64,000 nucleotides of DNA, taken from Chloranthus sessilifolius. Taxonomy: Eukaryota > Streptophyta > Magnoliopsida > Chloranthales > Chloranthaceae. The notes under the pieces are model-generated. The model did not search any database. It worked only from the letters and a program-made list of their open reading frames with translations, and was not told where the DNA came from. The translations under genes and the position numbers were made by a program. The stretch is from NCBI GenBank assembly GCA_021018995.1, contig CM037593.1, positions 42,421,810-42,485,809 of the forward strand, read 5' to 3'. Below, piece by piece: positions 8,551 through 60,398 of the stretch (the first letter of the stretch is position 1; each line of letters starts with the position of its first letter).

Positions 8551-8559
8551 GGTAAGCGG

Positions 8560-13015: not shown

Positions 13016-13820
13016 CTTGGTTGCTTCATTCTATGCAACCTGATATTAGTTACTCCTTTATGTATGCCACTAATATTGCTCAGGATTGTGGGACTCTATA
13101 TGAGAGGCTTTTTCTAAAAATAAAATCTTGCAAATATGTATCAACTCAGTGACAAGATCATTAACATGAAGCAAGGACACAAGAAAATTAGGGAGTACTA
13201 TACCCAAATGAGACGCTTGGGGGATGAATTGGTTCAAAATTAAAAGGAAGACTTATGTAGTTCATGTGTGAGCAGGGTACATAAGAATGTTGGAAGAAAA
13301 AGGTGTTTCTTTTAAGAGGTATTCATTCTGAGTTTGAAAATGCGAGATCTAATATTTTGGGAAGAGAGGAGTGCCCTCCTCTAGGAACTGTGTATACACT
13401 TCTCCAAAATGAGGAGAGTAGACAGCAAGTGTTGCATGTTCCAAGTAATGATGGAGCTACTTAATCTGCCTAACCTTCCTTTTCTTCCTTTGGTCAAGGT
13501 TGGGGGGAAAATAGTGGTAGAGGTGGTGGACGTGAGGACGTGGTGTCCTCTCACGCAAAGAACGAAAAAAATTAGTATGTTCGCATTGTTGAAAGATTGG
13601 ACACTAGGGAAAAATATTGGGATCTCCATGGAAAACCCAAGTTTCCTCCTAACTGAGCCTTTTAGTCATCTACAGAGGAGACTTCCATCGCTTCAGATGG
13701 GAACCATCAGATTCCCAGAGTCTACATAGGGAGTTGCAGGAGCTTTAGGATCACCTTTAGTGCATGACAATTACCCAGAGGTAGGTTTCATCTTTCCACG
13801 TTGTAGAGTCAAGTATCTAT
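13016..13820 (+). pseudogene. Copia E Gag, C-terminal part
   Basis: Reading across several frames gives WLLHSMQPDISYSFMYA, then MKQGHKKIREYYTQMRRLGD and FENARSNILGREECPPLGTV followed by LLQNEESRQQV, matching the UBN2/retrotran-gag plan of copia Gag. Near 13600 a decayed zinc-knuckle line ends YWDLHGKPKFPPN. There are at least three frameshifts and several stops. Element D interrupts it at 13821; it resumes as protease at 20743. Confidence 0.8.
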
Positions 13821-14302
13821 TGATGGATCTGTATGGATCTATCGATCCGACCATCCAAATATATGCCCTATGATCTAGGCGCATGATCAATAAAAAATAA
13901 TGAATTAACAATCCATAAATTAGAATATATGTGCGCACCTTGAGTGTGAGCCATGAATGATGGGTTGTCGATCTTCAACGATCTTCTCACTCTCAATTCC
14001 TCCTAGCACAATGGGGATGCTTTTTTCTAATAAGGAAGGTTGAAGTGTGTATAGCAATCGTTGGGACCAAGCACCCCTTATATTTATAGCCAAAGAGTCC
14101 TTTCCCATTAAGGACTTGAATTACTAATTATATTGTGATTAGAAATTACAATCATACCATAACTAAAAGACTTAAATATTAGTTGCTTATTCTTTGCAAA
14201 TTCACCGAATTAGCAACTACACATTTCAAGATTGATCTTACACCATTCACCGGTCGACAGGTTGACAATAGTGACGGCCACTAAAAATAAAAACTTCCAA
14301 CA
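13821..14302 (-). repeat. Element D 3' LTR
   Basis: 482 bp, paired with 20257-20737. The purine-rich stretch AAGTGAGAGAC lies just upstream on the minus strand (14303-14315), as expected for a PPT. Confidence 0.9.
14081..14088 (-). promoter_or_regulatory. TATA box in the element D 3' LTR
   Basis: TATAAATA on the minus strand within GGCTATAAATATAAGG. In the 5' LTR, the copy that would drive D, the same place reads TATACATA (20517-20524), so the better promoter is in the downstream LTR. Confidence 0.6.
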
Positions 14303-14689: not shown

Positions 14690-15340
14690 AATTTAAATAA
14701 ATATATTCACTCTCATACATCCACTCTCAAAGGCTGTCAAAATTATCCTTTAATCTCATGCACGCAATGTGCTCCAAAAAGAGCCTAGGAGGTAAGTCTT
14801 TAGTGAGAGGGTCAGCCAATATGAGTGTCGTACTGATCTTTTCAACAGATATAATTTGATTATGAACTTTCTCCCTTACAATAAGATATTCAATATCAAT
14901 ATATTTGGAACCTCCACTAGTCCTGTTGTTATTGGATATAACTATCGCAACGGAATATTGTCACATAAGATTCTTAGTGACCTTGAAATACTATCAACTA
15001 CTCGAAGCCCTGAGATAAAATTCCTCAGTCATATCGCTTCACATACTACCTCAAAACATGCAACGAACTCTACTTTCATAGTAGACGAAGTTGTCAGCGT
15101 TTGCTTAACGCTCTTCCAAGATATAGGTCCACCTGCAAACATAAATATATAACCTGATGTGGGCCTACGGGAGTCTTGACACCCAACACAGTCGGCATCT
15201 GAATAACCAATAACTTTAAGGTTATTCGACCTTTTCTATGTGAGCATGGATCCTTTTGTCCCTTGTAAATAGAAAAAAACCTTTTTGGCTGCTTTCTAAT
15301 GGTCCAAACCAGGATTACATTGATACCTACCAAGCATGCC
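14690..15340 (-). pseudogene. Element D RNase H
   Basis: Across frames one reads VIGYSDADCVGCQDSRRPTS, SGYIFMFAGGPISWKS and VKQTLTTSSTMKVEFVACFE, then IDIEYLIVREKVHNQ and LADPLTKDLPPRLFLEH. This is the copia RNase H with its D...E pattern (SDAD, and E in VEFVA). Stops (KRSN region, EAI*) and frameshifts break it. Confidence 0.85.
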
Positions 15341-16260
15341 AACTATATACGCTATGTCAGGATGAGTGCAGACTTGTGTATATATGAGACTCCCAACTGT
15401 CGATGCATAGGAAATTGTCTCCATTTGCTTTATGTCTAAATCGATCCTGAAACTCTGAAGTAGACTAAATTTATCACCCTTAATCACAGGGGCAATAGTA
15501 GCGGAGTAATTATGCATGTTAAAACTTTTGAGAACTTTATCAATATAAGTTTTTTGAGACAATCCCAGTATGCCACGGGTTCTATCTCGGTAAATCTCAA
15601 TTCCTATCACATAGGAAGCTTCACCAAGATCTTTCATATCAAAACTTTTTGATAAAATATTTTTTGTCTTATGTAACATGCTCAAACTACTACTCGCACG
15701 TAATATATCATCAGCATACAAAACAAGGATGGTAAACTTGCTCCCACTTATTTTAAGATATATGCATTGATCCATAATATTTTCTTTAAAATTAAAATTT
15801 AAAATGACTTCATAAAATTTTAAGTACCATTGTCGAGATGCCTGCTTTAAACCATATATAGACTTTTTAAATCTATAAATTATATGGCTCTTTCCCTTAA
15901 CTTGAAAACCTTCAGGTTGTGTCATAAAGATATCTTCATATAAGTCACTATTCAGAAAAGTAGTTTTGACATCCATTTGATACAATTCTAAGTTAAAATG
16001 AGCTACTAATTCTATGACTATCAGGAAAGATTCCTTTCTAGAGACAGGAGAAAATGTCTCTTTATAGTCTATTCCCTCCTTTTGAGTGAACCCTTTAGCG
16101 ACTAACCTGGCCTTGTATCTTTCTACATTGCCTTTGAAGTCTTGCTTGGTTTTATATACCCATTTATAGCCTACAGGCTTAACTCCTTCAAGTAACTCAC
16201 AAAGATCCTAGACCGAGTTATGTTTCATAGCTTCTAGCCATTGAGTAGATTTGTCACTCT
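15296..16260 (-). pseudogene. Element D reverse transcriptase
   Basis: 15296-15985 is an open stretch with YQMDVKTTFLNSDLYEDIFM, QPEGF, KSIYGLKQASRQWYLKF, the catalytic box LVLYADDILRASS (copia usually YVDD, here YADD), FDMKDLGEASYVIGIEI, LSQKTYIDKVLKSFNM and a C-terminal YAQ/YTQVCTHPDIAY region. The N-terminal part up to about 16260 is in other frames. Confidence 0.88.
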
Positions 16261-20254: not shown

Positions 20255-20256
20255 AT

Positions 20257-20737
20257 TGATGGATCTGTATGGATCTATCAATCTGACCATCCAAATAAAT
20301 GCCTTATGATCTAGGCGCATGATCAATAAAAAACAATGAATCAACAATCTATAAATTAGAATATATGTGCGCACCTTGAGTGTGAGCCATGAATGATGGG
20401 TTGCCGATTTTCAACGATCTTCTCGCTCTCAATTCCTCCTAGCACAATGGGGATGCTTTTTTCTAATAGGAAAGGTTGAAGTGTGTCAAGCAATCGTTGG
20501 GACCAAGCACCCCTTATATGTATAGCCAAAGAGTCCTTTTCCATTAGGACTTGAATTACTAATTATATTGTAATTAAAAATTACAATCATACCATAACTA
20601 AAAGACTTAACTCTTAGTTACATATTCTCTTCAAATTCACCGAATTAGAAACTACACATCTCAAGATCGATCTTACACCATTCACCGGTCAACAGGTTGA
20701 CCATAGTGACGGCCACTAAAAATAGAAACTTCCAACA
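20257..20737 (-). repeat. Element D 5' LTR
   Basis: 481 bp, paired with 13821-14302. Its TATA box is altered to TATACATA. Confidence 0.9.
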
Positions 20738-24367: not shown

Positions 24368-24722
24368 TGTGACAACTCGACTTTTCCCATTTCTGTATAT
24401 AGGAAAGGTCGTGTTGTCGGATCACCAAACATGATCCTGTCATATAAGTGCACCGTGTACAAAGTGTTTACAATTGCGGAAGCGTAATTTTAACTCTGAG
24501 AAAGAGAACATATGTCAGATAATTGATATTCATTTACTGTCTAAAAGTAGGAATATATACAATAACAAGATATAAACAAAAGCTATATATAGCTTTCCAC
24601 CGATAACGGCTACCCGTCATCTAAACAGTGGAAAGAAGACATATACATGAAGTACCGAATATCTAAAATATACTACTATTTATATATGTTTTAAAACAAA
24701 ACTCTCTCTCTCTCTCTCTAAC

Positions 24723-24842
24723 CTATTTAGGAAAGAAGTCCTCAGCAGAACCTTCCTCCTCGTCCTCCTCGTCCTCCTCCTCGGGCTGGTAGGTAGGATC
24801 AACTTCGTGCTCAGAGTCACAAGTAATATCTGCAGCTAAGAC
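24723..24842 (-). other. Conserved acidic open frame in the B 3' LTR
   Basis: The minus strand encodes VLAADITCDSEHEVDPTYQP, then an uninterrupted E/D run and GSAEDFFPK, stop TAG at 24723-24725. It follows an acceptor-like TCTTAG and has no ATG. The core D-P-T-Y-Q-P-E-E matches the A/C frame D-P-D-Y-Q-P-E, at the same distance from the LTR end (about 360-470 bp). In the 5' LTR (33958-34080) the frame carries a stop (TY*PEEE) and a shift. Confidence 0.45.
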
Positions 24843-25184
24843 ATGAAGTCGTAAGATGAGCTATCATCGAAGCTCAGCAGGAAAAAATTTTAATGTTACT
24901 TTATATGTTAGATTTCCAATTTACGTCTAGATGCATAGATTTCAATTGAGGCACATTATATCTTATTTATTTTAGTAACATGTAGCATTTAGTATAAACA
25001 AGCACTACATCATGCAAATCTGCACAAGAAATAAATTATACAAAACAGTGATCATGCTGACAGATTCATGTTGAACATATATGAGGAATCATGTTTCATA
25101 TTAAACAAATACAAGGAATCATGCTGAAACAAGACATCAAACTGAAGAAAGAATCAAGCTTTTGAGATCAAATGTCTAGCCCCT

Positions 25185-25470
25185 GAGCTATGCTAACAGG
25201 GTCACTAACACCAAGAAATCAAGCCCTTGAGCTATGTTATCAAGGTCAGTTGATACGAGACAAGTCAATCCTCTGAGCTAAGTTAGCAAGGTCACTTGGT
25301 ACGAGACGAGTCAAGCCCCTAAGCTAAGTTAGCAAGGTCACTTAGTACGAGACGAGTCAAGCCCCTGAGCTAAGTTAGTAAGGTCACTTGGTACAAGACG
25401 AGTCAAGCTCCCGAGTTAGCGGGATTACTTGCCAAGCTCCCGAGTTAGCAGGATCACTTGTTACAAGACG
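25185..25470. repeat. 46-bp tandem array in the B 3' LTR
   Basis: Six to seven units built on GAGCTAAGTTAGCAAGGTCA and TTGGTACGAGACGAGTCAAG; the last units are shortened. The same array is at 34395-34710 in the other LTR. It lies inside the candidate leader intron (26220 to about 24836). Confidence 0.85.
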
Positions 25471-26327
25471 AAACAAAGATGTATACATGATATCAAAGAT
25501 AACAGGACATGAACAATGCATGCTAACATGTATGCAAGAACATCATGAACAGATCATATACCAAAACTATTTTGAATAACTGAACTCAGATGATCATATA
25601 CTAGCATAATCATTGATCATCATGTATCTAAGCTGAACTAGCATCATAATCATGCAAAGCATACATCGAGCCCAAAGCTTTATAAATTGATCTAACACCA
25701 TCAGTCATATTCATACATCGAAAACTAGCATGTGTATACATTATTATACGTTGTATTTAAACTATTCTTTCATCACGATTCATAAACCTTCCTCTAAACT
25801 CATCAATATTATCATCATGCATACATATTTATCTGTTGGTCTATATCATATCAACTAATTTAGTTTGACAATATTCCTAACATACTAACATATGTCGAGT
25901 TGATCTTATTGAACTTATATGCTTATGATCATGTATCAACTTAAAACTGAATTTGCATATGCTCATACATCGAGCTGATTTGATCATAAGCATGCATTCA
26001 TTTCAACTGACATTCATTTGAACCGACTTACTATCATCACAACAGACGTATAGATTAAACTGACAAATCATCATTACAGCAGATGTATAGCCTCATATAT
26101 ATATACAATCCATATGTCTGATTTTAGCATGGTCTTGAGCAAAATAATTATATACTATCACGTACGATCTAAGATGCGAAGAAGAAACTAATTAGAAGGT
26201 AGCAAGGTAAAATTCCCTACCTTAGCTCATATCCGACTTGTTACGTATGCTTGCACATTCAAACTAGATCCCTTGGTACGATCTCATCATGTGCACCAAC
26301 ACCTATTAGTTATGTATATCGTTTTTA

Positions 26328-26328
26328 G

Positions 26329-26355
<27 letters not shown>
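26328..26355. repeat. (AT)n microsatellite
   Basis: Uninterrupted TA dinucleotides. The matching tract in the other LTR is at 35557-35590, where about 45 bp next to it have been lost. Confidence 0.9.
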
Positions 26356-26363
<8 letters not shown>

Positions 26364-26477
26364 TTCTGGGTCACCTATACGTCAAATAGGTCTCATATAT
26401 GGGCACTACCCATGAGATTTAATGTAGTGCACAACAACCCAAACCCAAGGCTCAACGTAGTCACTGCACATGCCTAA

Positions 26478-26830
26478 CACAGGCTTGCCTCAGCAAGCAA
26501 CAGGGTTGCCTCTTGCCGAGGCAAGTCTCTCTGGCTTGTCTCAGCTTACCTCAAATTGTTACTAATTTTTGAGCTATTAAACGTTAGATTCATAAATTTA
26601 TTAAATCATAAAAGTTATAGGGCTCGTTGTCCTCTTTCCAACACATCAAGAATCGCTCCAATCAGAGTTCGGAGTCAAAAGTTATGACTAAACTACTAAA
26701 CAGTCGTTAAGGCATAGGGTTGCCTGGGCAAGGACATGCTTGCCGAAGGCAAGCCACTCAGCCAACAACTTGTCGTGGCAACTAAAGCCTTGCCGTGGCA
26801 AGCCTGTCAGGCTTGGCTTGTTGTGTGCTT
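26478..26830. repeat. TTGCC/GGCAA palindrome cluster in the B LTR
   Basis: Repeated short inverted motifs such as CTTGCCTCGGCAAG, CTTGCCGAGGCAAG and TTGCCGTGGCAAG. A second cluster is at 27722-27835; the other LTR has matching clusters at 35668-35740, 35915-36010 and 36905-37045. Confidence 0.8.
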
Positions 26831-28484
26831 TCTTGCTCCTTTCTGACCTTTTTACCTCATGTGGTCCGCTGGATCTTCTACCCTACATATTTATTATATT
26901 CTTCCTTGTATACTTTGCATAGGGAACCTAATTTTAACTATGAAATCTGCTAAGGAAGTTTCAGTATATTTGGTGGAAATTTGAACACCGAAACCTTCGT
27001 GAAAGTGACTTTCTTTGTGCTGCCAATTCGTCGGCCTCATGGAATCGACACCACAGTTCACTAATTGATTGTAAAATAAGTCAATTGAACTAAGAGGGGG
27101 TTCGGTTTATGACATACCTTATCGTGACCTTGTGGTCATAATGATGCCAACCAAGGTTTTGAATTTGCCGATCTTGTGACTTGTGAGAACTAGGTTGCAA
27201 GAACTCGCCGAGAGCAAGGGTTCGATAGCCGAAACTCTCGCGACCGAATCGTAGGGTCGCTTGAAAACTCATGGGTTCGAATCCATGGTTTGAATAGGTT
27301 GGAAATGGAAGTGGGTTTGAGCTATAAGAAAAGATATTTTTCTGATTTTACTTGGCTTTTGTTTTTCACGGAGTCTGTGTGCTATAAAATAAGGTTGAAG
27401 CAGGAAGAAGAAGAATGCTCTATCGATTTTTGTAGCAAGTTTAGCTACACTTTGCATGCATGGGAGTCAAAAATGACTCATGCGGCCGTGGAGTAAGGGG
27501 GCGATACAAAACAGCTTATAAGCTGTTAAGGGCTGGAATCTCATGTCTTGCTAGCCTTGGGTTTTTAAGTGTATACTCATATAAGCCAAAACAGGCATGT
27601 TTTGCATATAAAGCTAATATACTAGTTAAGTATATTAACCAGCAAGCTTGTCTTTAGTGTACATCAAGTACACTTATCTTTTCAATATTAATAGAAGATT
27701 TAAGGTTTGCTTTATTTTAATTGCTTGCCTCAAGTTGTAGAGGCAACCACACTTGCTTGCCTCAGGTGCCGAGGCAACTGATTTCACTTGCCTCAGTTGC
27801 CGAGGTAAGGCCATCAGGCCTTGGTTGGTATTTTTCTCCATGCACTACTAGGTATTGGATCAAAGGATTGACACCCCTCAGTGCCTAGCAGTCCCATGCA
27901 TTATTTAAAATTGTGTTACGTAAATTTTCATCCTTAGGAGGGCTCCGAATATTTTACTTCTTACTAAACCTATGATCACCCGTTGTTTCTAATATTGGGT
28001 CACTAAGGCTCCACTATTTAACAGTCATCATCAAAATTCTAAGTCAGTTCTTTGTGTCACATTTTTGGCACAAGCCTGACCCTACTCGAGTCCGTACTCG
28101 ATGTTGTCAGGATAAAAATGTGGCAGCTGTTACATTCTCCCCTACTTCAGGGATTTTTGTCCTCGAAAATAAAAGAAGGTGGGGAAGTGAGATAAGATTC
28201 GGTTATATGTTGAAAGCATATCCCATTATAATATAGAGTAAACATGGCTAGGTAATAATAAATAATAAAATAAACATATAATAAATTTAGAATAATATAA
28301 AGTAAATTGAATCATGTGCAGTATCATGTGCCAGTATATAGTGCATTAAAATCTAATATCCATCTATTTCTCTACTTCTAATTTATACATAATTATACGG
28401 GCAATGCATACGAAACTTTTATATATCTCATATGCAGTAAGTTATTCTAACAAATTCAATAAACAATTTAACTCAAGGAAATAA

Positions 28485-30599: not shown

Positions 30600-31330
30600 A
30601 ATGTCGATAATACCCTACGAGACCTAGAAAACTTTAGATCCCGGTTGTGGATGCTTCCATTGCACTACAACCTCTATCTTAGCAGGATCTACGGTAATAC
30701 TGGCTTCGGAAATGACATGCCCCAGAAAACTAACTTGATTCAACCAGAAGTAACATTTACTAAATTTCACATACAATTGAGAATCTCTCAATGTTTGTAA
30801 AGCAAAATACAGATGATCTTCGTGCTCTGCTCTCGTCTTTGAGTAGATGAGAATATCGTCGATGAATACTACGATACACTGATCTAGGTAAGACTTGAAG
30901 ACTCGATTCATCAAGTCCATAAAGGATGCAGGAGCATTGGTCAACCCAAAGGGCATGACGAGAAACTCGTAATGACCATATCATGTTCGAAAGGTTATCT
31001 TTGAAATATCGTTAGCTTTTACTTCCATCTGATTATACCCCGATCGTAAGTTAATCTTTAGAAACCATTGTGCACCTTGTAATTGATCGAAGAGATCGTC
31101 GATTCTGGGGAGCGGATAACGCTTCTTAATCGTCAGTTTATTTAATTGACGATAGTCAATGCAAAGACGCATTGACCCATCTTTCTTCTTCACAAATAAT
31201 ACCGGTGTGCCTCATGGAGGCACACTCAGTCTGATAAACCCTTTGTCCAAAAGCTTTTATAACTGCTTCTTGAGTTCATTCAATTTTGCAGGTGCCATTC
31301 GATACGACGCCTTTCATACTGGCTCAGTAC
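30600..31330 (-). pseudogene. Element B reverse transcriptase
   Basis: 30981-31193 has [20 protein letters not shown] and [15 protein letters not shown] (usual K-I-D changed to K-I-N, removing the first catalytic Asp). 30624-30956 has [17 protein letters not shown] and the intact box [11 protein letters not shown], then [20 protein letters not shown]. There is a frameshift near 30970. Confidence 0.87.
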
Positions 31331-31948
31331 CCGGGGCTAAATCAATGGTGAAATCCACTTCCCTGTCAGGCGGTAATCTTGGCAACTCATCAGGGAAGAC
31401 ATCAGGGAATTCACAGGTAATCGACACATCTAAAAGTGAAACTTTCTTTTCTTCTTGTTTGTGACTTTGGATGAACGGCAGATACCCTTGAGCACCCTCA
31501 TCAAGTAATCGCCGTGCTCGAATCGTTGAAATGAAAGGAAGTATCGTTGACTGTACACCGAAAAGTGTAGCTGATTTCCTTCCTTGTGGGCGGAAAGTGA
31601 TGATCTTCTTTCGACAATCAACATTTGCATGGTGGTTGAACAGCCAATCCATACTAAGGATTACGTCGAATCCTTGCATATCGAGTAAGATCAAGTCAAC
31701 TACTGCTTCGTATTCCCAGTAATCTTTGATTAAGACTATAATGGATCGATATACAATGTCAGTCGTGACAGATTGTCCAGTCAGAACTGACATGTCCAAT
31801 ATAAAGTCGAGATGTTCTGGAGTGGCTCCCAACTTTCCCAACTTTTCTGCAAACCGCGGTGTGACAAATGAATGTGTCGATCTAGAATCTACCAAAACTT
31901 GTGCCTCATACAACAAGTAGGCATCCTTTGGATACAATTGCAAGGTAC
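31314..31948 (-). pseudogene. Element B protease and link to RT
   Basis: An open frame of over 200 codons. After the candidate acceptor it reads TLQLYPKDAYLLYEAQVLVD, then SRSTHSFVTPRFAEKLG, where the active site D-S-G is D-S-R. It continues VDLILLDMQGFDVILSMDWL and CEFPDVFPDELPRLPPDREV, leading into RT. It is probably inactive because of the Gly-to-Arg change. Confidence 0.87.
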
Positions 31949-32130
31949 CTAAGACATAGATTTACTAGTGTTTGCTAAATTGTTTCCACTTAATAAACTA
32001 TATATCTATCATTTCTAAATTGATGAAAAGCAACAATTATACTAGATGCACAAATATATAAACTATTTAACTAAATGCACCTTCTTTATCAAAAATAAAA
32101 TTAAATAATTGGTACCTACAATTCATGTAC
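31949..32130 (-). other. Candidate 182-nt intron between gag and pol of element B
   Basis: Minus-strand Gag reads TSNDIIQG with donor ATTCAAG|GTACAT at 32130. The AT-rich segment ends TCTATGTCTTAG at 31949, and the following exon continues in frame as T-L-Q-L-Y-P. Retention gives TGA two codons after the split Gly codon. The position equals that in element A (8752-8897), although the internal sequence differs. Confidence 0.75.
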
Positions 32131-33447
32131 CTTGAATGATGTCATTGCTGGTTTGGGCACCTTGTGCCGACACAGCATAAGCTCGGCCTTGTACCGTAGG
32201 CCGTGCAGATCGTAGAACTGGTCTTGCCTTTGATGTCGTCCCCACCGTCTCTAGACAATTCTTAATCCGATGTCTCATTTTGCCATAATGAAAACATGCA
32301 CTAGACACTTTCCGGCAGTCAACGGTCTTGTCTGCCTTCTCACACTTCCCACAGACCTCGGTTGAAGCTGCCGAAGAAACTACATAGGAATTGGTGTGAG
32401 AAATTGTCGGTCGTGCTTGTGAAACTCGAGACACATACTAGGTAGGCTGGTGTAACGGTTGTGGAATTCGAGGTGGTAATGCTGCTGGAGTATAAGGCCG
32501 CGTATAAGCTACTGCAGCAGGTCGAAATGCTGGCTGCATAGAAGATCGCGATTGTTTACTGATTTGATCGGGACAAGAACTAACCGACTGAGATGGAGCT
32601 TTTCTCGTTCTATTTTGCCCTTCTCTCCGTTTATACATGCTTTCCACATCAATCTCTGCTATAAGGGCTAATCGCATCACATGCGCATACGTTGTTTCCT
32701 GAAACAACAAAATTCTTTCTTTGATCAGGGGCTTCAAACCCTACTCCAACTTCTGGGTCTTCATGAGTTCCGTGGCGACGAGCAATGGTGCAAAATGAGA
32801 GAGGCAAGTAAATTCTACCTCATATTCCCTAACAGTCATCGAGCCCTATACTAAGGTCACAAACTGGACCTAAATTCAGTATCTCTCAGGCGCCGAAAAA
32901 TATTTCTCATTGAAGGCTTCGGTAAATTTTACCCACGTCCAAGGTACTCCGGGTACTCTTGTCCATTCGACGGACTATCACCATGGATCTGCCTCACCCT
33001 CCAGTTTATTGGCCACCCAACTAACCTTTTCGTCCTCAGTGCATGTAACTCTTTGAAGCACTTTATCGATATGTGTTAGCCATTTCTCAGCCTCCATTGG
33101 GTCGTGCTGACCATAGAAACTAGGCGGTCGGAGTCGTACAAACTCCTGAAAACCTTATGGGGGTCTTCTCACAGCTAGCATAGCCATGGTGCTCACCATG
33201 GTTTCCATCAACTGCAGATTCTGTCCCACATTCTGATCGGTGCTGGGAACAGGACCCATCTGATTCACATTTTCTAAGGGCGGAGTATGCCTTGCAACAT
33301 TTCCATGGTAGTCCGACTCTCTGCCATATTCACGTCCTCTCCGTGTCCTGATACAGTGTCGTGCTCATACCGCGCTACTGGAATAGCATTCACCCACGTG
33401 CGATGGGGAAATGGTGGACTATCCCGTCTACCTCGTCTTGGAGGCAT
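32131..33447 (-). pseudogene. Element B Gag
   Basis: ATG at 33445-33447 begins MPPRRGRRDSPPF, a usual Tekay-type Gag start. Pieces of the capsid region follow in several frames; 32438-32737 holds ETTYAHVMRLALIAEIDVES. The knuckle region (32123-32434) has CGKCEKADKTVDCRK and CFHYGKMRHRIKNC, with the second Cys and the Gly-His spacing altered. It is frame-broken. Confidence 0.82.
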
Positions 33448-33596: not shown

Positions 33597-35555
33597 TGTG
33601 ACAACTTGACTTTTCCCATTTCCGTATATAGGAAAGGTCACGTCGTCGAATCACCTAACATGATCCTATCATATAAGTGCACCGTGTACAAAGTGTTTAC
33701 AATTGCAGAAGCGTAATTTTAACTCTGAGAAAGAGAATATATGGCAGATAATTAATATTTATTTACTGTCTAAAAACAGGAATATATACAACAACAAGAT
33801 ATAAACAAAAGCAATGTATAGCTTTCCATCGATAACGGCTACCCGTCATCTAAACAGTGGAAAGAAGACCTATCCATGAAGTACCGAATATCTCAAATAT
33901 ACTACTCCTGTTTATACATGTTTCAAAACAAAACTCTCTCTCTCAAACCTATTTAGGAAAGAAGTCCTCAGCAGAACCTCCTCCTCCTCCTCATTGTCCT
34001 TGTCCTCCTCCTCAGGCTAGTAGGTAGGATCAGCTTTGTGCTCAGGGTCACGAGCAATATCTGTAGCTAAGATATGAAGTCGTAGGATGAGCTATCATCA
34101 AAGCTCAGCAGAGAAAATTTATAATGTTACTTTATATGTTAGATTTCCAATTTACGTTTAGATGCATAGATTTCAATTGAGGCATATTATATCTTATTTA
34201 TTTTAGTAACATGTAGCATTTAGTATAAACAAGCACTACATCATGCAAATCTGTACAAGAAATTAATGATACAAAACAATGATTATGCTGACAAATTCAT
34301 GTTGAACATATACGAGGAATCATGCTTCATGTTGAACAAATATAAGGAATCATGTTGAAACAGGACATCAAACTGAAGAAAGAATCAAGCTTTCGAGATC
34401 AAATGTCTAGCCCCTTAGCTATGTTAACAGGGTCATTAGTACCGAGAAATCAAGCCCTTGAGCTATGTTATCAAAGTCACTTAATATAAGATGAGTCAAG
34501 CTCCTGAGCTAAGTTAGCAAGGTCACTTGGTACGAGACGAGTTAAGCTCCTGAGCTAAGTTAGCAAGGTCACTTGGTACGAGACGAGTTAAGCTCCTGAG
34601 CTAAGTTAGCAAGGTCACTTGGTACAAGACGAGTCAAGCTCCCGAGTTAGCGAGATCACTTGTCATGCTCCTGAGTTAGCAGGGTCACTTGTTACAAGAT
34701 GAAACAAAGAGGTGTACATGATATCAAATATAACAGGACATGAACAATGCATGCTAACATGTATGCAAGAACATCATGAACAGATCATATAGCAAAACTG
34801 TTTTGAATAACTTAACTCATATGATCATATACTAGCATAATCATTGATCATCATGTATCCAAGCTGAACTAGCATCATAATCATGCAAAGCATACATCGA
34901 GTCTGAAGCTTTATAAACTGATCTAACACCATCAGTCATAGTCATACATCAAAAACTAGAATGTACATACATTATTATACGTTGTATTTAAACTATTTTT
35001 TCATCACAATTCATAAACCTTCCTCTAAACTCTCCAATATTCTCATCATGCATACATATTTATTGTTGGTCTATATCATGTCATCTAATTTGGTTTGACA
35101 ATATTCCTAACATACTAACATATGTCGAGTTGATCTTATCGAACTAATATGCTCATGATCATGTATCAACTTAAAACTGAATTAGCATATGCTCATACAT
35201 CGAGCTGATCTTATCATAAGCATGCATTCACTTCAACTGACATTCATTTCAACCGACTTACTATCATTACAATAGACGTATAGATTAAATTGACAAATCA
35301 TCATTACAGCAGATGTATTGCCTCATATATATATACAATCCATATGTCTGATTTTAGCATGGTCTTGAACAAAATAATTATACATTATCACATACGATCT
35401 AAGATGCGAAGAAGAAACTAATTAGAAGGTAGCAAGGTAAAATTCCCTACCTTAGCTCACATGCGACTTGTAACATATGCTTGCACATTCAAACTAGATC
35501 CCTTGGTATGAGCTCATCATGTGCACCAACACCTATCAGTTATGTATATCGTCTT

Positions 35556-35592
<37 letters not shown>

Positions 35593-37346
35593 GTACTACC
35601 CATGAGATTTAATGTAGTCCACAACAATCCAAACGCAAGACTCAACGTAGCCACTGCACACGCCTAACACAGGCTTGCCTCGGCAAGCAACAGGGTTGCC
35701 TCTTGCCGAGGCAAGTCTCTCTGCTTGTCTTAGCTTACCTCAACTTGACACGAATTTTTGACCCATTAAATGTTAGATTCATGAATTTGTTAAACCATGA
35801 AATTTATAGGGCTCGTTGTCCTCTTTTCAACGCATCAAGAATCGTACCAATCAGAGTTTGGATTCAAACGTTATGACTAAAATACAGAACAGTGGTCAAC
35901 ACATACGGTTTCCGCTGCAAGGACATGCTTGCTGAGGCAAGCCACTCAGCTAACACCTTGCCGCGAAAACTAAAGCCTTGCATGGCAAGCCTGTCAGGGT
36001 TGGCTTGCTGCGTGCTTTCTTGCTCCTTTCTGACCTTTTTGCCTCATGAGGTCTGCTGGATCTTCTACCCTATATTTATTATATTTTTCCTTGTATACTT
36101 TGCATAGGTAACCTAATTTTAACTATGAAATCTGCTAAGAAAGTTTTGGTATATTTGGTGGAAATTTGAACTCTGAAACCTTCGTCATAGTGACTTTCTT
36201 TGTGTTGCCGATTCGTCGGGCTCATGGAATCGACACCATAGCCCACTAATTGATTGTAAAATAAGTCAATTGAACTAAGAGGGGGTTCGATTTATGACAT
36301 ACTTTATGGTGACCTTGTGGTCATAATGACGCCAACCAAGGTTTTGAGTTTGCCGAGCTTGTGAGCTTGTGAGAACTAGGCTGCAAGAACTCGCCGAGAG
36401 CAAGGGTTCGGTAGCCGAAACTCTCGTGATCGAATTGCAGGGTCGCTTGGTAACTCACGGGTTCAAATCCATGGTTTGAATAGGTTGGAAGTGGAAGTGG
36501 GTTTGAGCTATAAGAAAGGATATTTTTCTGATTTTACTTGGCTTTTGTTTTTCATGGAATCTGTGTGCTATAAAATAAGGTTGAAGCAGAAAGAAGAAGA
36601 ATGCTTTGTCGATTGTTGTAGCAAGTTTAGCTGGACTTTGCGTGCATGGGAGTCAAAAATGATTCATGCGACCGTGTAGTGAGGGGGCGATACAAAACAG
36701 CATATAAGCTGTTAAGGGCTGGAATCTCATGTCTTGCCAGGCTTGGGTTTTTAAGTGTATACTCATATAAGCCAAAACAGGCTTGTTTTGCATATAAAGC
36801 TAATATACTAGTCAAGTATATTTACCAACAAGCTTGTCTTTAGTGTACAACAAGTACACTTATCTTTTCAATATTAATAGAAGATTTAAGGTTTGCTTTA
36901 TTTTAATTGCTTGCCTCAAGTTCCGAGGCAAGGTGCTTGTCTCAAGTTGCCGAGGCAACCACACTTGCTTGCCTCAGGTATCGAGGTAATTGATTTCACA
37001 TGCCTCAGTTTCCAAGTCAAAGCCATCAGGCCTTGGTTGGTATTTTTCTGCATACACTACTAGGTTTTGGGTCAAAGGATTGACACCCCTCAGTATCTAG
37101 CAGTCCCATGCATTATTTAAAATTATGTTACGCAAATTTTCATCCTTGGGAGGGCTCCGAATATTTTACTTCTTACCAAACCTATGATCACCCGTTGTTT
37201 CTAATACTGGGCCACTAAGGCTCCACTATTTAACAGTCATCATCAAAATTCCAAGTCAGTTCTTTGTGTCACATTTTGGACACAAACCTGACCCTACTCG
37301 AGTCCGTACTTGATGTTGTGAGGATAAAAATGTGGCAGCTGTTACA
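33597..37346 (-). repeat. Element B 5' LTR
   Basis: 3750 bp, paired with 24368-28134. It holds the same internal repeats; the GATAAG|GTATGT donor-like site is altered to ATAAA|GTATGT here, and the acidic frame is broken. Confidence 0.92.
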
Positions 37347-39171: not shown

Positions 39172-39566
39172 TGTGACAGCTCGGATTTCCACACCCAAAA
39201 ACTCATGCCATTAGGATCATACTCTGGATAATCCCCATAACAAATCAAAGAGTGTCTGCTCGTCTAGTGAAAATTAGAGCAGACACTATCCTGTAGTGGC
39301 AGATCGAGTCATTATATAAGGCTCAAAAGAAAGGAAAGAGAAACAAACACTGCATGTATATAAACAAAAAAGAATATACATCCTCAAAAAGGAACCAAGA
39401 AGAACCACTGGTGATGGATGTCCATCACCCAAAACAATGGTTCCTGATAGTGATTCCTATAGAATGTATATGAATATAAGTATAACATCTATAGTAAAAA
39501 TACAGAAAGGTGGCCACCAGGCACACAAATAATCTAAAATACATATACAGGACCCAAAACACAAAA

Positions 39567-39695
39567 CTAATACCCAAGCTGCGAATAAAACTTGTCAGCA
39601 GGGGTGTTAGTGTCCTCCTCCGCCTCAGCCTCCGGCTCGGGCTGGTAGTCAGGATCACTCTCTGTATCGGGGACTCTAGCCTCAAAACCTATTAT
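39567..39695 (-). other. Conserved acidic open frame in the C LTR (least damaged copy)
   Basis: The minus strand encodes FEARVPDTESDPDYQPEPEA, then EAEEDTNTPADKFYSQLGY and TAG at 39567. It is the longest and cleanest copy of the frame seen in the A LTRs. Confidence 0.45.
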
Positions 39696-40504
39696 ATATA
39701 AATAGGGTGAGCTAACCATCTAAGCTCAATAGAAGAAATTCAGTTAAATTTGCATCTTAATTGTAAAATATGGTTACAGAATATAACTTAGACAGATAAA
39801 TAAGGTAGAGTACAGACAGAACTGGACAGATGCAGACAAATAATCAAATATGCAGAATAATCAGAAAGCAGAACTTGTAAGAACAAACCTAACCTCAGAG
39901 TTTTTAGGATGCTTTACATACAGTATTTAAATGACTTAAAATAGTATACTTAAGTAACTCCCATAAATATTATACGTGGTAGCCAGATGTGTGCCGATGG
40001 GTAACCTCGACCATCATCATTCAATAACAATTTCAGGAAAGAAACAATGCCTCATCTAAGGAGCGCAATTGTGCCGAGAAATTTTTAAAGCAGATGCACG
40101 AATGTGCCAGTCACGGATATACCGCTGAGTCAGTGGGATTCATCAGATAGATAAACTTAAAATCACATGCATACATATCATAATAACAGGAATCAGATGA
40201 TAGATATCAGATAACAGGAATCAGAGGTGATGGAACTTTCATTCATATGCAAGACATGATTTGAAAAATAAAATCAGAATATGTGTCAGAACACAGAATC
40301 TATGAACCCATGAGATCAAAAATAAATGCAAGTTCGGTTGAATTTCCCCTACCTCAGATCAAGTCTTTCTAAGCAAATCCAAAGCTTTTTAAGATGTTCA
40401 GACTTTGACCTAGATCATACGTGTAGTATACTAAGTGTCAAAACAGAAATTTATACACTGCCTAGCAACGTTTTTCCCAGAAAACCAATACAGACAAAAT
40501 AGGA

Positions 40505-41255
40505 GAATTCGATCGATCAATCTCTATATTTGATCGATTAGATTCACATTTGATTGATCAATTCCTCATTTGATCGATCGGATGTCTTCCTCTAAGACAG
40601 ACAGAACAAGGGAGACTCGATCGATCAATCCCCCTATTTGATTGATCGATTTCACATCTGATCAATCAATTTCTTCATTGATCGATCGGATGTCTCAACC
40701 TACACAGCCTGAATAAAAGACATCTGATCGATCAACCTCCATATTGATCGATTGGATTCTCAAGTTGATTGATCAATTCCCATAATTGATTGATCAAAAT
40801 CAACATTTCAACTTCTTCAGAACAGAGGAACTTTGATCGATCAATCTCATCATTGATCGATTGGATCCTCAATTCGATCGGTCAATCCCCATGTTTGATC
40901 GATCAGGTAAAAAATTCATAAAAACATACCTCCTGTTTCATAGTGTGTTTATAAAATGTTATCAATCAAATCCCTGATTTGATCGATTAATACCATAGTT
41001 TGATTGATCAATTCCCAATTGATCGATCAGTTCAAACCTAATTGATCACTTCTCAATTTGATTGATCAGTTCCAAATTTGATTGATCAAACCACCAGTTT
41101 GATCGATCGAGCCCATCAGATTCTAACTTCTCAAGAAATTCACCCTTCTATTCATAAGGGCCATTAATAAAATTCGATTGATCAACTCCCAAGTTTGATC
41201 GTTCAGATTACAGACTGATCGATCAATTCTCAATTGATCGATCGGATTTGACAGT
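40505..41255. repeat. GATCGATC palindrome array in the C LTR
   Basis: Same family of palindromes as in A, with many copies decayed to GATTGATC or ATCAATCA. Confidence 0.9.
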
Positions 41256-42020
41256 TAAACTGTTATTAATGGGGTCTGTTGCATTCAAACCCATTTCATC
41301 TCTAACCTTTATGATTCTCCATGAATCATTCAAGCACACCAAACATACATATTTAATGATATCTAAATTACAGAAAACCCATAATAACTCACCTCTTTGA
41401 TGGAGGTTCCTTGGTTCACGACATCCTAGGTCCATGCGGGTTTTAGATTCAAATCGGGGAGTTTGTCGTTTGAGCTCTCCGATGAACCAAAGGTACAACT
41501 CTGCGCTAACTCACAGATGCATTTTATTCTCTCAAACAGATTGACGTACTCACGTCCATTCACTTACACTCTTAATTAGCGGATTGGAAATTGATGTGAT
41601 ATTTTAATGTATGTTTTACTCGCAAGTGCACGAATCGGTTTGTATATAGTGGGTGCGGAGTACGAGATCGTTCCCACGAGGATTAATTTTGAAATACCTA
41701 AAAGAGACAAGCAATTCTAGAAATCTATTAAGATCTAACAGTATTCTACCAGTTTTATGATTTAAGTGGTTGATGGTAATTAATGACTACAAACTAAAAT
41801 TCAATTGATGATTCACAAATAAAAGTGAAGATGATGATAAAGATGAAGATACTAAATCCTCCCATCTTTGGTCCGTTCTTCCTATAATATAAATCTAAGG
41901 ATTAAATTATGAGATATTTCATTAGTAACAAACATCTTTTATGGAAGATCAATGGTCAACACACTAATAGGTTCCATGTTGCATCCCTGCAATTAGGACT
42001 TAGATGATTTTCATATATAG

Positions 42021-42350
42021 ATCTGGGATCAAGGGCACGGCTAGGCACGCATGATCTCAGGTTCAAATAAAAATCATCCCCAAGGTGGGTGAAAATTCCA
42101 ACAAGAATACCACTTACAAATCTGAAATCAAGGGCATGGCTCGGCACACTTTATTCAGATTAGGGATTATTTAAGATAAAATTACCATTACAGAACCAAG
42201 ATCCAGGGCATGGCTCGGCACACTCGATCCCAGAACATAATCGTAATTAGATCCACACAATGAAAACACAAAGACCATAACAATGATAGGGTAAAATTAC
42301 CGTCACAGATCTGAGATCCCGGGCATGGCTCGGCACACGCGATCCCGGTT
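42021..42350. repeat. Four-copy GGCTCGGCACAC repeat in the G LTR
   Basis: Units at about 42021, 42120, 42191 and 42307 share ATC-x-AGGGCATGGCTCGGCACAC followed by a GATCCC-like end, 70-115 bp apart. The matching set is at 60827-61157. The units lie in different frames, so it is not a coding repeat. Confidence 0.85.
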
Positions 42351-42829
42351 AGTGGCAGGGATTTCATCCATTCATGATAGCACAACAACCATAAAATTAA
42401 AATCTCATGTTTTAATCCTAAATTTATATTATTAAAAGTACATCCCTTGGATGGGAATCATTAGATCCCCATCCCTATAAATTTAGCCACACATATTGTA
42501 AGTAAATGACATAAATAAATAAAGACGGGAAAATAACATTAATTAAAATTACCTCAAACTTCAAAATAAATTACGTTGATCCACACGGATGATAATCTTC
42601 AGAAACGAAATAAATGCAGGAAATAACCTTTGAACAAAATTTATAAACTGAAGGAATGAGTACTGAAAAATTAAAGGGAACAAAGCTCTCAAAAAGAAAT
42701 AATAAAACTTCCCTATTTCTAGGTCTAACTATGAAAAACAATGGCTAAAAACTAAGAACACTAAAAACTAAAACTCTCTAAAAAAAAACTCTAATTCTAA
42801 TCTCCTCTTCCCCGAAGTGTTTGAGTCAC

Positions 42830-42837
42830 TTTAAATA
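42830..42837 (-). promoter_or_regulatory. TATA-like box of the G LTR
   Basis: Minus strand CTATTTAAAGTG, 35-120 bp downstream of the TCGATTAATCGA palindromes. In the 5' LTR one base is lost (CTATTTAAGTG). Confidence 0.45.
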
Positions 42838-43345
42838 GACCCGTCGTGCGGAGGTCTCCTAAGCCTACTTTTCCGGGTCGATTAATCGACCAATGGATGT
42901 CGATGCATCGAGCCGACCCCAGATTCGTGTCAAACTTAAACTCTGGCTCGATTAATCGACCCCAGAAATCCGTGAAATTCAGCACTTCTTGTGGTTTAGA
43001 CACGGCTTCGGTATTTCGGCCATAACTTTCTGTCCCGAACTCAGATTGAGACGATTCTTTCGCCGTTGGAAAGCTGACGAAAAGATCTACAACTTTCATG
43101 TTTTGACAATTTCGTAATTCGGCCGTATTGAAGGTCCACATTTAGCCGCAAGTCGCACCAAGTTCTTGATTACCTGAAGTTGCAGTGTTTTGGCATTATA
43201 TTCAGAATTCTTGTACTGTTTTCTATACTTGGCTTGTATTTACCTGAAACACTTCAAATCTAATCAATCTCATCAGATAGCCTTCATCAGACAGCTAAAT
43301 ATAGGTATTTAGGGGCGAAATATCCTCATTTTTCAGTACTCATCA

Positions 43346-45438: not shown

Positions 45439-46068
45439 TCAGTCAGGGTGAGCCAGTGGCTCACCCAAAGAAATAGTGTCAGAGAATGCAATCGCATTCT
45501 CAAGGAACGGTTTCAATCGCTGACCGTTAACTCGAAAAATATTCCCGTGTTTCGGGTTTATAATATCTACTGCCCCATTGGGGAGTATTCGAGAGATTTT
45601 GAAAGGACCACTCCAACGGGTTTTTAGTTTCCCCGGAAATAGATGAAGTCGGGAATTGTAGAGTAGAACTAGTTGACCAACAACGAACGATTTCCGCAGA
45701 ATAGATTGATCATGAACCCGTTTCATACGGTCCTTATACGATTTAGCACAGTCATATGCATCAGCACGGAGTTCCTCTAATTCATTTATTTGGAGACCCC
45801 TTTGGGTACCAGATTTCAGGAAATCGAAATTCAATGACTTAACGACCCAAAATGCTCGATGTTCCAATTCAACTGGGAGGTGACACCCTTTACCAAAGAC
45901 CAACCGATACGGCGACATGCCAATCGGAGTTTTAAATGCAGTTCTATACGCCCATAGAGCGTCATTCAGCTTTAACGACCAGTCTTTACGGTTTGGATTG
46001 ATTGTCTTTTCTAAAATCCGCTTAAGTTCCCGATTAGAGACTTCAACTTGGCCACTTGTCTGAGGGTG
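45439..46068 (-). pseudogene. Element G integrase, C-terminal half
   Basis: An open frame starting at the H insertion point with [20 protein letters not shown], so the catalytic Glu (V-E-V-S-N) is intact. It continues [40 protein letters not shown], the [20 protein letters not shown] region, and a C-terminal [20 protein letters not shown] segment with [10 protein letters not shown]. It ends at 45439. The N-terminal half is at 55004-55390. A few codons upstream of 46068 belong to the H LTR and are not G sequence. Confidence 0.9.
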
Positions 46069-46314
46069 TGTTAAGTAGTGAAAAATACCATTTTTCACCC
46101 CTAAACATGAGCCTTGAAAGACCCTTGAGAAGACTAAATAAGTGCTTTAGTGTGCATTTTACAGCTAACCAATCAGACAGGTCCAAATCCGAAAAGCATC
46201 CCAAAAAGATCAAAAAGCTGACAGCTCATGTCAAGTTTAAAGGAGTGAAGAAACAGCCTCAGCAATGGCTAAAGAGGGTCTAAAAGAGCAGACAAAGACC
46301 TGAAGCAAGAGAGA

Positions 46315-46565
46315 GTTCAATTCGCAAAGAACTTCTACTATTCGCAAAGAAGAATGGAAGCCTAGAGTTCAATTCGCAAAGAACTTCTACTATTCGCAAA
46401 GAAGAATGGGAGCCTAGAGTTCAATTCGCAAAGAACTTCTACTATTCGCAAAGAACCTTGAACTTTGCGAAAAGAAGAAAACACTCCTCGAAAAGAAGAT
46501 TGAACTTTCATTTGCGAGCGAGCTTGAAGTCATTGAACTTCTTGCTGAAAAGGCCCCTCAACTCT
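46315..46565. repeat. TTCGCAAAG repeat block in the H LTR
   Basis: TTCGCAAAGAACTTCTACTA and CGCAAAGAAGAATGG alternate about six times, then TTCGAAAAG/TTTGCGAAAAG variants. The matching block is at 53425-53680. A similar cluster occurs at 51100-51265, just after pol. Confidence 0.85.
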
Positions 46566-46777
46566 GCGAAATGGCATTCGAATTTGCACTCGTCCAAGGG
46601 TATTTCAGAAACTTTGCACGCGCTAATGCAATCAAAAGACCAGAACATTCCGTAAGGTTCCAATCAAGATCCGAAGGCATATTCTAACCCATGTGGCGCC
46701 CAAAGTTAAATTACGGCGGAACTTCCGAAGCTCAAACAGAATTTCAAACCCATAATGAATTGATGCTTACGGCTTTG

Positions 46778-46920
46778 ATTGGCTGAACCAGATCAGAGCA
46801 TTTCCATTGGCCAAAACAGATCTGGATCCCCGTGCTCAACCCTCATTGGGCAATCCAGATCTAAAGCATTCCTGATTGGTCAATCCAGCCATGCGCAGGA
46901 TGGAGGAAAAAGTATAAATA
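46778..46920 (+). promoter_or_regulatory. Promoter of element H: four ATTGG boxes and TATA
   Basis: ATTGG (inverse CCAAT) occurs at 46778, 46806, 46845 and 46875, three of them as near-palindromes (ATTGGCCAAA, TTGGGCAATCC, ATTGGTCAATCC). TATAAATA follows at 46913-46920. The 3' LTR keeps the set, with TATAAATA at 53996-54003. Confidence 0.65.
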
Positions 46921-47945
46921 GAGAAGCCATTCGCCCAAATTGGGTATCCAGATTTTAGAGTTTTCATCTCTGTTTCCCTCATTCCGGTCAGATAGCTTAT
47001 CTGAACCCCCTGTAATCCCTTCTTGTAGTTTACCTTTGAGAGCCATTGTGAGTGATTTGTACTTCCAAGTTCGGATTCAAGACTGTAAGTCTGAGGGCTC
47101 TCTGAGAAGCTCAGACTGTAAGTCTGAGGGCTCTCTAAGAAGCCGTGCTCTGTAATTGTAATTTTGGATTTTAAAAGGTTGCTGTAATTTGTGTCTTCTC
47201 CATTGGAGTCATGTCGAGGGTTCTGAATGTTCACCTTAGTGCATTAGACTTCTTTAGATTCACTCATCCGCATGCAACTTCCCTTAATTCATCACCCTGC
47301 GAATTAGCGTTGGTAACCTAATTCTAGCAAAGATTTACAAAGGATGTTCATGTTCAGAACTAAAGAATAGGCCACAACTATTGGATGATCTGTGACCATT
47401 TAAGTGGACAGACCATAGCCATAAGTCTAAACCTATTCCTTAATTCGGATTTATTTCTCTTACATCTGTGCTGGTAGCCAGATGAAGATTGAATCTGCTC
47501 TGTTGAACTACCGATTCTCCATTAAAATTCAGAGGCTAAAGTACATGAAGCTATTATTTCTGCATTTGTCTTATTTTAAACATCTCCCCAACTCGGATCT
47601 GGATCATGTAGTTAGTTCTTTTCTTTATTTGCTTATAGTTAAATGTGACACAATCCAACACTCTCTTTTATCTATTCTTTTTTTTAGATAATTATAGAGC
47701 CAGATCTGGTAGCACAGATCTGGAGGTTTATCTTAAATTTTAAATCAATTCCCTGTGGACGATCTTGAAATACTTACTTTTAAAACTTGCTACAATTGGC
47801 CCTGATCTTGCAGGCCAGTGTTAGCCCCAATGTGCTGATATTCCTTTCATAAGTTAACATCCATATAACCTAGCATTCTTTAATTCTTTAATTTTTGATT
47901 CATAATGCGCACAATTATGGCACACTTGGAGCGACAACAAGTTTT

Positions 47946-53177: not shown

Positions 53178-53189
53178 AGGTTTGGGGTG
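53178..53189 (+). other. Element H polypurine tract
   Basis: AGGTTTGGGGTG directly before the 3' LTR. Confidence 0.7.
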
Positions 53190-55003
53190 TGTTAAGTAGT
53201 GAAAATACCATTTTCACCCCTAAACATGAGCCTTGAAAGACCCTTGAGAAGACTAAATAAGTGCTTTAGTGTGCATTTCTGACTAACCAATCGAACAGTC
53301 CAAATCCGAAAAGCATCCCAAAAGATCAAAAGGCGTGACTCATGTCAAGTTTAAAGAAGGAGTGAAGAAAGCGACCTCAATGGCTAAAGAGGGTCTAAAA
53401 GAAGCGGACAAGACCAAGCAAGAGAGAGTTCAATTCGCAAGAACTTCTACTATTATGAAGAAGAATGGAAGCCTAGAGTTCAATTCGCAAAGAACTTCTA
53501 CTATTCAAAGAAGAATGGGAGCCTAGAGTTCAATTCGAAGAACTTCTACTATTCAAAGAACCTTGAACTTTGCGAAAGAAGAAAACACTCTCGAAAAGAA
53601 GATTGAACTTTAACAGAGCTTGAAGTCATTGAACTTTGCGAAAAGGCCTCGAACTCTGCGAAATGGCATTCGGGATTCGGCTCGTCCAAGGGTATTTCAG
53701 AAACTTGCACGCCCCAATGCAATCAAAAGACCAGAACATTCCGAAGGTTCCAATCAAGATCCAAGGCATATTCCAACCCATGTGAGCGCCCAAAGTTAAA
53801 TTACACGGCGGGAACTTCCGGAAGCTCAAGCAATTTCAAACCCATAATGTAATTGATGCTTCCGATTGGCGAACCAGATCGAGCATTTCCATTGGCCAAA
53901 ACAGATCCGGATCCCCGTGCTCAACCCTCATTGGGCAATCCAGGATCTAAAGCATTCTGATTGGTCAATCCAGCCATGCAGGATGGAGGAAAAAGTATAA
54001 ATAGAAGCCATTCGCCCAATTGGGTATCCAGATTTTAGAGTTTTCATCTCTGTTTCTCATTCCGGTCGGATAGCTTATCCAACCCCCTGTAATCCCTTCT
54101 TGTAGTTTACCTTTGAGAGCCATTGTGAGTGATTTGTACTTCCAAGTTGATTCAAGATGAAGTCCGAGGCTCTCGAGAAGCTCGATTTGAAAGTCCGAGG
54201 AGCTCTCTACAGTGCTCGTAATTGTAATTTTGGATTTTAAAAGGTTCAGTAATTTGTGTCTTCTCCATTGGAGTCATGTCGAGGGTTCTCAATGTTCACC
54301 TTAGTGCATTAGACTTCTTTAGATTCACTCATCCGCATGCAACTTCCCTTAATTCATCACCCTGATGTAATTAGCGTTGGTAACCTAATTCTAGCAAAGA
54401 TTTACGATGATGTTCATGTTCGAACTAAAGAATAGGCTACTGGATGCGGATCTGACCATTTAAGTGGACAGATCACAGCCATAAGTCTAAACCTATTCCT
54501 TAATTCGGATTTATTTCTCTTACATCTGTGCTGGTAGCCAGATGAAGATTGAATCTGCTCTGTTGAACTACCGATTCTCCATTAAAATTCAGAGGCTAAA
54601 GTACATGAAGCTATTATTTCTGCATTTGTCTTATTTTAAACATCTCCCCAACTCGGATCTGGATCATGTAGTTAGTTCTTTTCTTTATTTGCTTATAATT
54701 AAATGTGACACAATCCAACACTCTCTTTTATCTATTCTTTTTTTTAGATAATTATAGAGCCAGATCTGGTAGCACAGATCTGGAGGTTTATCTTAAATTT
54801 TAAATCAATTCCCTGTGGACGATCTTGAAATACTTACTTACATTTAAAACTTGCTACAATTGGCCCTGATCTTGCAGGCCAGTGTTAGCCCCAATGTGCT
54901 GATATTCCTTTCATAAGTTAACATCCATATAACCTAGCATTCTTTAATTCTTTAATTTTTGATTCATAATGCACACAATTATGGCACACTTGGAGCGACA
55001 ACA
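53190..55003 (+). repeat. Element H 3' LTR
   Basis: 1814 bp, paired with 46069-47939. The last roughly 500 bp are nearly identical; the first roughly 1.3 kb differ by dozens of 1-5 bp indels. Confidence 0.92.
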
Positions 55004-60392: not shown

Positions 60393-60398
60393 AAAACT

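Follow-up and report, generated by a model that had tools for sequence, protein, structure and literature searches.

Results

Two interrupted retrotransposons

We analyzed a 64,000-nt window of the Chloranthus sessilifolius genome (assembly GCA_021018995.1, contig CM037593.1, positions 42,421,810 to 42,485,809) that contains two long terminal repeat (LTR) retrotransposons, elements A and B, whose gag and pol frames are separated by a short GT...AG segment. All features of A and B given below lie on the minus strand. The segment of B (31949-32130, 182 nt) interrupts, in phase 1, a glycine codon between Gag and protease (D-I-I-Q-G|T-L). As read from the sequence and from the corresponding ends in relatives, its donor junction is GAC ATC ATT CAA G|GTACAT (donor at 32130) and its acceptor junction TCTTAG|GT ACC TTG CAA TTG (31949; CTTAG|GTACC at 31949-31953). 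The segment of A (8752-8897, 146 nt; GTATCATT...AACTAAG), delimited in the same way, reads CAAG|GTATCA at 8897 and CTAAG|GT ACT CTT at 8752. Both are poor in G+C: 23.6% in B, where the 300-nt flanks have 49% and 41%, and 25.3% in A, where they have 50% and 42%. Reading both junctions bore out the original prediction for this window that A and B share one glycine codon and one phase. That their interiors are unrelated also held, as comparison of the A and B interiors revealed no likeness beyond that of shuffled sequence (in four comparisons, the observed score was reached by 290, 246, 64, and 88 of 300 shuffles).

The 3′ part of the B gag frame (32123-32437), whose zinc-knuckle region was recognized by eye, is open until a TGA within the segment; past the donor (GTACAT, 32125-32130) the frame reads G-T-TGA, placing the previously claimed read-through stop at the third codon. 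No Pfam gag match was found in the two B gag pieces scanned. The pol frame opens 13 nt ahead of the segment's 3′ end, and its protease start (31314-31961) matches Pfam RVP_2 (E 3.3e-20).

The elements have Ty3/gypsy organization, with an LTR pair and Gag, protease, reverse transcriptase, RNase H, and integrase in order (the zinc knuckle was matched in A). The 5′ and 3′ LTRs of B (33597-37346 and 24368-28134) are 90.4% identical and those of A (10277-13006 and 252-3025) 89.4% identical; thus, both insertions are old. Both B LTRs contain repeats spaced 46 nt apart (25167-25464 and 34398-34695). In A, pol encodes a reverse transcriptase (RVT_1, E 6.8e-35; 7585-8580), and the integrase end (SH3_Tf2-1, E 3.7e-21; 5401-5862) gives a sub-threshold chromodomain match (22.0 bits, compared with the Pfam cut-off of 25.1). 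A scan of five B pol pieces gave no chromodomain match. Both copies are damaged. In B, gag contains stops and the protease site reads D-S-R; in A, about 100 nt of protease present in its relatives are missing.

Anatomy of the segment in genomic copies

We searched the window's own 2.17-Gb genome for copies of each element. We scored 40 candidates for each element, out of 1,750 for B and 2,201 for A, and fetched 30 loci in each case; since the queries contained the segment, these copies give no intron frequency. In the B copies with a 5′ side, the GT was intact in 27 of 29 and the AG in 25 of 29, donor position +3 was A in all 29, and most donors were GTACGT or GTATGT. Segment lengths ranged from 155 to 197 nt, and a CTRAY motif whose A lies at -23 occurred in 25 of 30 copies. 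In L029, a TA microsatellite has grown between the branch block and the acceptor, shifting CTRAY from -23 to -55. In the A copies, GT and AG were each intact in 29 of 30, with the donor GTATCATT showing few changes, the acceptor AACTAAG, and lengths of 144-155 nt. The ends predicted for B (AAG|GTACAT...TCTTAG) are present, but GTACAT is atypical among its relatives and is probably a decayed form of the GTACGT found in most of them. The branch-like block of B (31965-31979), identified by comparison of B copies, looks decayed as well, reading CAAAC where relatives have TTTAGCTAACACTAG.

With these GT...AG ends and donor, branch, and acceptor sites, the segment resembles a U2-type intron, although the donor of A is atypical. 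This donor (8890-8897 of A, and also in an abundant related family, L090-L092) is, we presume, one base from a U12-type donor. A search by eye for a U12 branch site in the A-type family revealed no clear candidate. At the place of A's donor, other families have U2-like GTATGT or GTGAG donors. It is possible that the intron type switched within one lineage. Inverted repeats were not evident at the ends of 14 introns (2-7 of 15 positions matched), giving no sign of a DNA transposon.

Frame geometry and Gag-Pol synthesis

Frameshifting at gag-pol is common in retroviruses and retrotransposons, according to the available text of PMC3735527. We considered whether frameshifting, stop-codon readthrough, or internal initiation of pol could yield Gag-Pol from the unspliced RNA. 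In 27 of 29 B copies gag stops at the third codon, and in all 30 A copies it stops at the sixth; pol opens 4-5 codons (B, 26 of 29) or 0 codons (A, 30 of 30) before the segment's 3′ end, and the two frames do not overlap. In the window copies of both A and B, the segment has stops in all three frames and the first methionine of the pol frame is past the protease active site. As no reading frame runs open through the segment, ribosomal frameshifting is excluded, and frame geometry, stops, and the position of the methionine similarly argue against the other two routes. We therefore rejected all three, and Gag-Pol synthesis without splicing is exceedingly improbable.

Constraint on either side of the segment

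We compared three B subfamilies with the main set of copies. Fixed differences were frequent in the segment's interior (31/126, 39/141, and 12/107) and rarer in the splice elements (2/22, 0/23, and 1/13; permutation P 0.086, 0.0012, and 0.57, respectively). In the flanking exons, fixed differences numbered 0/87, 1/84, and 1/85 at codon position 1, 0/85, 0/81, and 0/77 at position 2, and 5/85, 4/90, and 2/81 at position 3 (pooled, 2/499 at positions 1 and 2 and 11/256 at position 3). This codon pattern, together with the drifting interior, indicates that gag and protease have been under selection on either side of a much freer segment. Most of the changes within old B copies probably arose after insertion.

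Precisely intronless copies

If the segment is spliced, copies made from spliced RNA should lack it exactly. We searched the genome with a 29-nt empty-site pattern, allowing up to three mismatches; the exon ends of all 29 intron-bearing B copies fit this pattern. It matched 11 places, compared with none for the reversed control, and 10 of these read in frame from gag into protease. The eleventh, L070, was first counted as intronless and then dropped, as its upstream side is not gag. The A family contains two intronless copies, also in frame, versus none in the control, and a third family, with GTGAG donors, has one (L105, assigned by sequence). The L090-type family gave one empty-site match, whose sequence was not fetched. 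In these natural copies, exact removal of the segment restores the frame, as expected of a U2-type intron. An open reading frame (ORF) that spans a natural junction was searched for protein relatives, and none of 32 candidates qualified at E 1e-6.

To ask how often the segment had been lost, we placed the 29 intron-bearing and 10 intronless copies on a gag tree (39 rows), which showed six changes of state, at least three of them forced by well-supported branches. A pol tree, which left out L064 and L071 as too short and included only four A rows, also showed six, but one is owed to L070, so the count should be one lower. Six intronless copies (L061, L062, L064, L065, L067, and L069, with L064 and L069 a sister pair) are scattered among intron-bearing ones. 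Within 300 nt of the junction, each fits some intron-bearing copy at 85.6-91.3% identity on the gag side and 88.3-90.3% on the pol side, whereas their best matches to a separate intronless group (L063, L066, L068, and L071) reach 72.2-81.7% and 75.3-77.8%. In a protease tree, from which L071 was omitted, L063, L066, and L068 mix with intron-bearing L097 and L099, and thus the state of this group is probably also due to loss. Of five intronless copies checked for LTRs, three (L061, L067, and L069) are flanked on either side by LTR parts with 88.9-94.5% mutual identity.

The segment ends carry a direct repeat of 6 nt, which is AGGTAC in B and AAGGTA in A, and it was therefore necessary to test whether the segment is an unspliced insert that was lost by deletion, or by template switching of reverse transcriptase between the 4-6 nt common to its ends. 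Deletions of 27-225 nt do occur elsewhere in gag and pol (seven are listed among the 39 rows), but with the exception of one sister pair they never recur at one place. As controls, we used three of 34 candidate pairs of 6-nt repeats lying 120-260 nt apart, whose joined patterns were findable in 90-93% of copies. Genome-wide, these pairs gave 0, 0, and 0 losses, compared with 10 at the intron. Precise loss also occurred in the third family, where relatives' segment ends share only 4 nt. Since deletion would also leave the conservation of the donor and branch site and the joining of the frames unexplained, we regard an unspliced insert as very unlikely.

Breadth of the split arrangement

To look beyond copies resembling A and B, we searched the genome with P0005, an uninterrupted protein. 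Of 33,891 candidates, 134 matches were scored; their start falls ahead of the junction in 86 and shortly past it in 48. In all 12 fetched from these 48, gag ends at the glycine codon and protease starts further on. Genome-wide, two donor-side patterns matched 121 and 1,918 places (reversed control, 0 each), counts that may take in fragments and neighboring families, and six of the 121, picked from other variants, had the identical arrangement. Thus A, B, and all 18 further loci have Gag split from protease, although the 18 were fetched as candidates and so give no frequency, and none of these elements has the single uninterrupted gag-pol ORF expected of Tekay/Del elements; intronless members of the clade read in one frame. 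Donor and acceptor were parsed by script in 14 of the 18 loci and by eye in the other four. The 14 parsed segments are 127-206 nt long with 22-32% G+C, and donors in other families include GTATAA, GTACAA, GTGAGG, GTATCA, and GTATGT. At least five groups beyond A and B carry a segment at the glycine codon.

Uninterrupted relatives exist in the same genome and elsewhere. Predicted proteins in public collections cross the glycine codon unbroken (e.g., P0004, ...DVVAGTLSVNSVPAKVLIDSGATRSF), including some with plant names (Typha P0005 and Apium P0012). Of eight fetched loci matching P0005 across the codon, six (L102-L104 and L107-L109) are classical elements with no interruption (e.g., ...VIQGNVPIF...), while L105 and L106 have the longer spacer of the split clade and no intron. 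This spacer, from GTL to VLxD, is mostly 14 residues in split elements (17 in L086) and 8 in uninterrupted ones; of 167 public proteins (in one set, the best 120 of 2,230), 87 have both motifs, 82 of them with an 8-residue spacer and none with 14. At the homologous codon, L102 reads CAAGGTAA (CAAGGT), which is exon sequence resembling a donor and coincides with the intron site of the split clade. A search for relatives in IMG/VR yielded one stretch that fit a pattern and none that was confirmed.

In the protease tree, intron-bearing and intronless rows lie together on one side of a branch with support of 83/87 (not starred). Seven or more groups fall on this side, of which six are starred. A motif filter dropped 23 of the 59 rows, including all eight of L102-L109, so that the uninterrupted rows are proteins from other sources. 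This grouping, together with interiors that retain no residual similarity, argues against the alternative raised with the original prediction that A and B share the segment by recent common descent.

These data also bear on whether the intronless state is ancestral, with the intron gained later and spread by recombination. The classical elements L102-L104 and L107-L109 are unbroken at the codon, where L102 has CAAGGT, and these observations favor such a history. However, the intron is common to A, B, and the other split families, intron-bearing and intronless rows fall on one side of the branch, and the scattered intronless copies resemble intron-bearing neighbors on both sides of the junction. 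We consider this history unlikely; moreover, it concerns history alone, and the segment would remain an intron. We conclude that an intron at the conserved glycine codon between the Gag zinc knuckle and protease was probably present in the ancestor of a Tekay/Del-like clade in this plant. The Tekay/Del label is our assumption, resting on the original prediction, LTR length (2.7-3.8 kb), and general knowledge.

Other elements in the window

A third copy of A (39172-41579 and 62174-63998) is interrupted by element C. Judged by position, locus L040 lies at the expected junction of this copy, and the intron is present. Element C (41588-62177; LTRs 41588-43345 and 60395-62177, 97% identical) was considered as a second example and rejected, as neither its gag nor its pol frame is unbroken and the protease piece fits another Pfam family; it probably belongs to another lineage. 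Direct repeats inside C (46064-47939 and 53185-55003) probably mark a further element. A Ty1/copia reverse transcriptase (RVT_2, 15296-16207) is flanked by direct repeats (13819-14302 and 20255-20737, 93.6% identical).

Discussion

A model that accommodates these data, and that we hold to be very probably correct, is that the segment is a spliceosomal intron, old in this chromovirus clade, with unspliced RNA serving as Gag mRNA and genome and spliced RNA as Gag-Pol mRNA. Splicing of the segment is strongly supported by genomic evidence. The donor, branch-like, and acceptor sites are conserved, coding sequence is constrained to either side of the segment, and precise losses that keep the frame have occurred repeatedly and in several families, all of which upholds the intron originally predicted. 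In this model, unspliced RNA would be exported, translated into Gag up to the stop a few codons beyond the donor, and packaged as genome, and new copies would therefore retain the intron. The spliced fraction would be translated into Gag-Pol. Spliced RNA would occasionally be packaged and reverse-transcribed, yielding intronless copies that would seldom multiply, because they would make fused Gag-Pol only and no free Gag. We infer that splicing probably sets the ratio of Gag to Gag-Pol, so that one RNA would give more Gag than Pol.

Several observations weigh against this model. One locus, L089, has AT instead of GT at its donor, and we take the A-type donor GTATCATT to be weak by the usual plant consensus. 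Among the three B subfamily tests of the splice elements, one was clear (P 0.0012), one weak (0.086), and one null (0.57), and a test of shared variants was not significant (11/24 positions variable in splice elements and 83/158 in the rest, P 0.34). The segment ends carry 4-6-nt direct repeats, and some losses could reflect template switching. Finally, the LTR-like parts on the two sides of intronless copy L062 do not overlap, and L065 has an LTR part on the 5′ side only in the stretch fetched.

The separate RNA pools proposed originally find indirect support in the numbers of genomic copies. Donor-side matches far exceed empty sites, 121 versus 10 for one pattern and 1,918 versus 1 in the abundant family, ratios that are rough because the patterns differ in length. 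The 1,918 donor-side places against a single empty site suggest that genome RNA would nearly always be unspliced in that family. These numbers also bear on whether the intron could be spliced constitutively or incidentally and play no part in setting the ratio of Gag to Gag-Pol. The available text of PMC7730604 describes many isoforms arising by alternative splicing of some expressed sunflower LTR elements, as would fit incidental splicing. Against this, the intron separates Gag from protease in A, B, and all 18 candidate loci, the Gag stop lies just inside the donor, and empty sites are nearly lacking in the abundant family; we view a spliced intron of this kind as rather unlikely.

We know of no account, for most chromoviruses, of how more Gag than Pol arises from one RNA or of how RNAs for translation and replication are separated. 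More tentatively, and with slightly more doubt than belief, we suggest that across the whole clade, regulated retention of one ancestral intron could be the Gag/Gag-Pol switch, with translation and genome RNA strictly separate (in one abundant family, about one empty site per 1,900 intron-bearing places). If so, a dedicated export and packaging route for unspliced RNA would be implied. As genomic copies record both outcomes, the intron being kept when unspliced RNA is copied and lost when spliced RNA is copied, leakage between the RNA pools can be counted per family without experiment. The junctions 32131/31948 and 8898/8751 are ready-made for RNA reads.

In line with the original remark that no description was known for this clade, we found no earlier report of a Gag/Pol intron in a chromovirus in the literature searched, a scope outside which most subscription papers fell. 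The available text of a 2025 review describes plant LTR elements as generally intron-free and singles out Ogre and EVADE as exceptions (PMC12786077). The main text of a CRM-clade paper, in its available form, has no words beginning with intron or splic (PMC3059260).

Tekay/Del elements are Ty3/gypsy chromoviruses, as A and B probably are, and have the same protease neighborhood. Tekay/Del chromoviruses have long LTRs, and CRR is a chromovirus of the CRM clade. While A and B are split, gag-pol is continuous in our six uninterrupted relatives from the same genome and, in the available text of PMC3605345, forms one continuous ORF in Beta chromoviruses such as Beta Bongo3. CRR transcripts are reported to be spliced in a way that removes rt (PMC3735527, available text); unlike the splicing proposed for A and B, this does not concern an intron that divides Gag from Pol. 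Among Ty1/copia elements, Bianca has a similar gap, of about 172 bp, between two ORFs, for which the available text of PMC6317226 describes no splicing. In BARE1 of barley, a 104-nt U-rich intron is partially spliced, and translation and replication RNAs are kept apart (PMC3735527, available text), as we propose for A and B, although BARE1 uses splicing the other way. The closest known system is Ogre, a Ty3/gypsy element of pea and Medicago in which, as in the A/B clade, a short intron lies between polyprotein ORFs; it is spliced from part of the transcripts, enabling synthesis of the whole polyprotein (PMC6317226, available text). However, Ogre belongs to the non-chromovirus Tat lineage and its intron lies between protease and reverse transcriptase, whereas that of A and B lies upstream of protease, between Gag and protease, and in contrast to Ogre, precise losses are seen in several families of the A/B clade.
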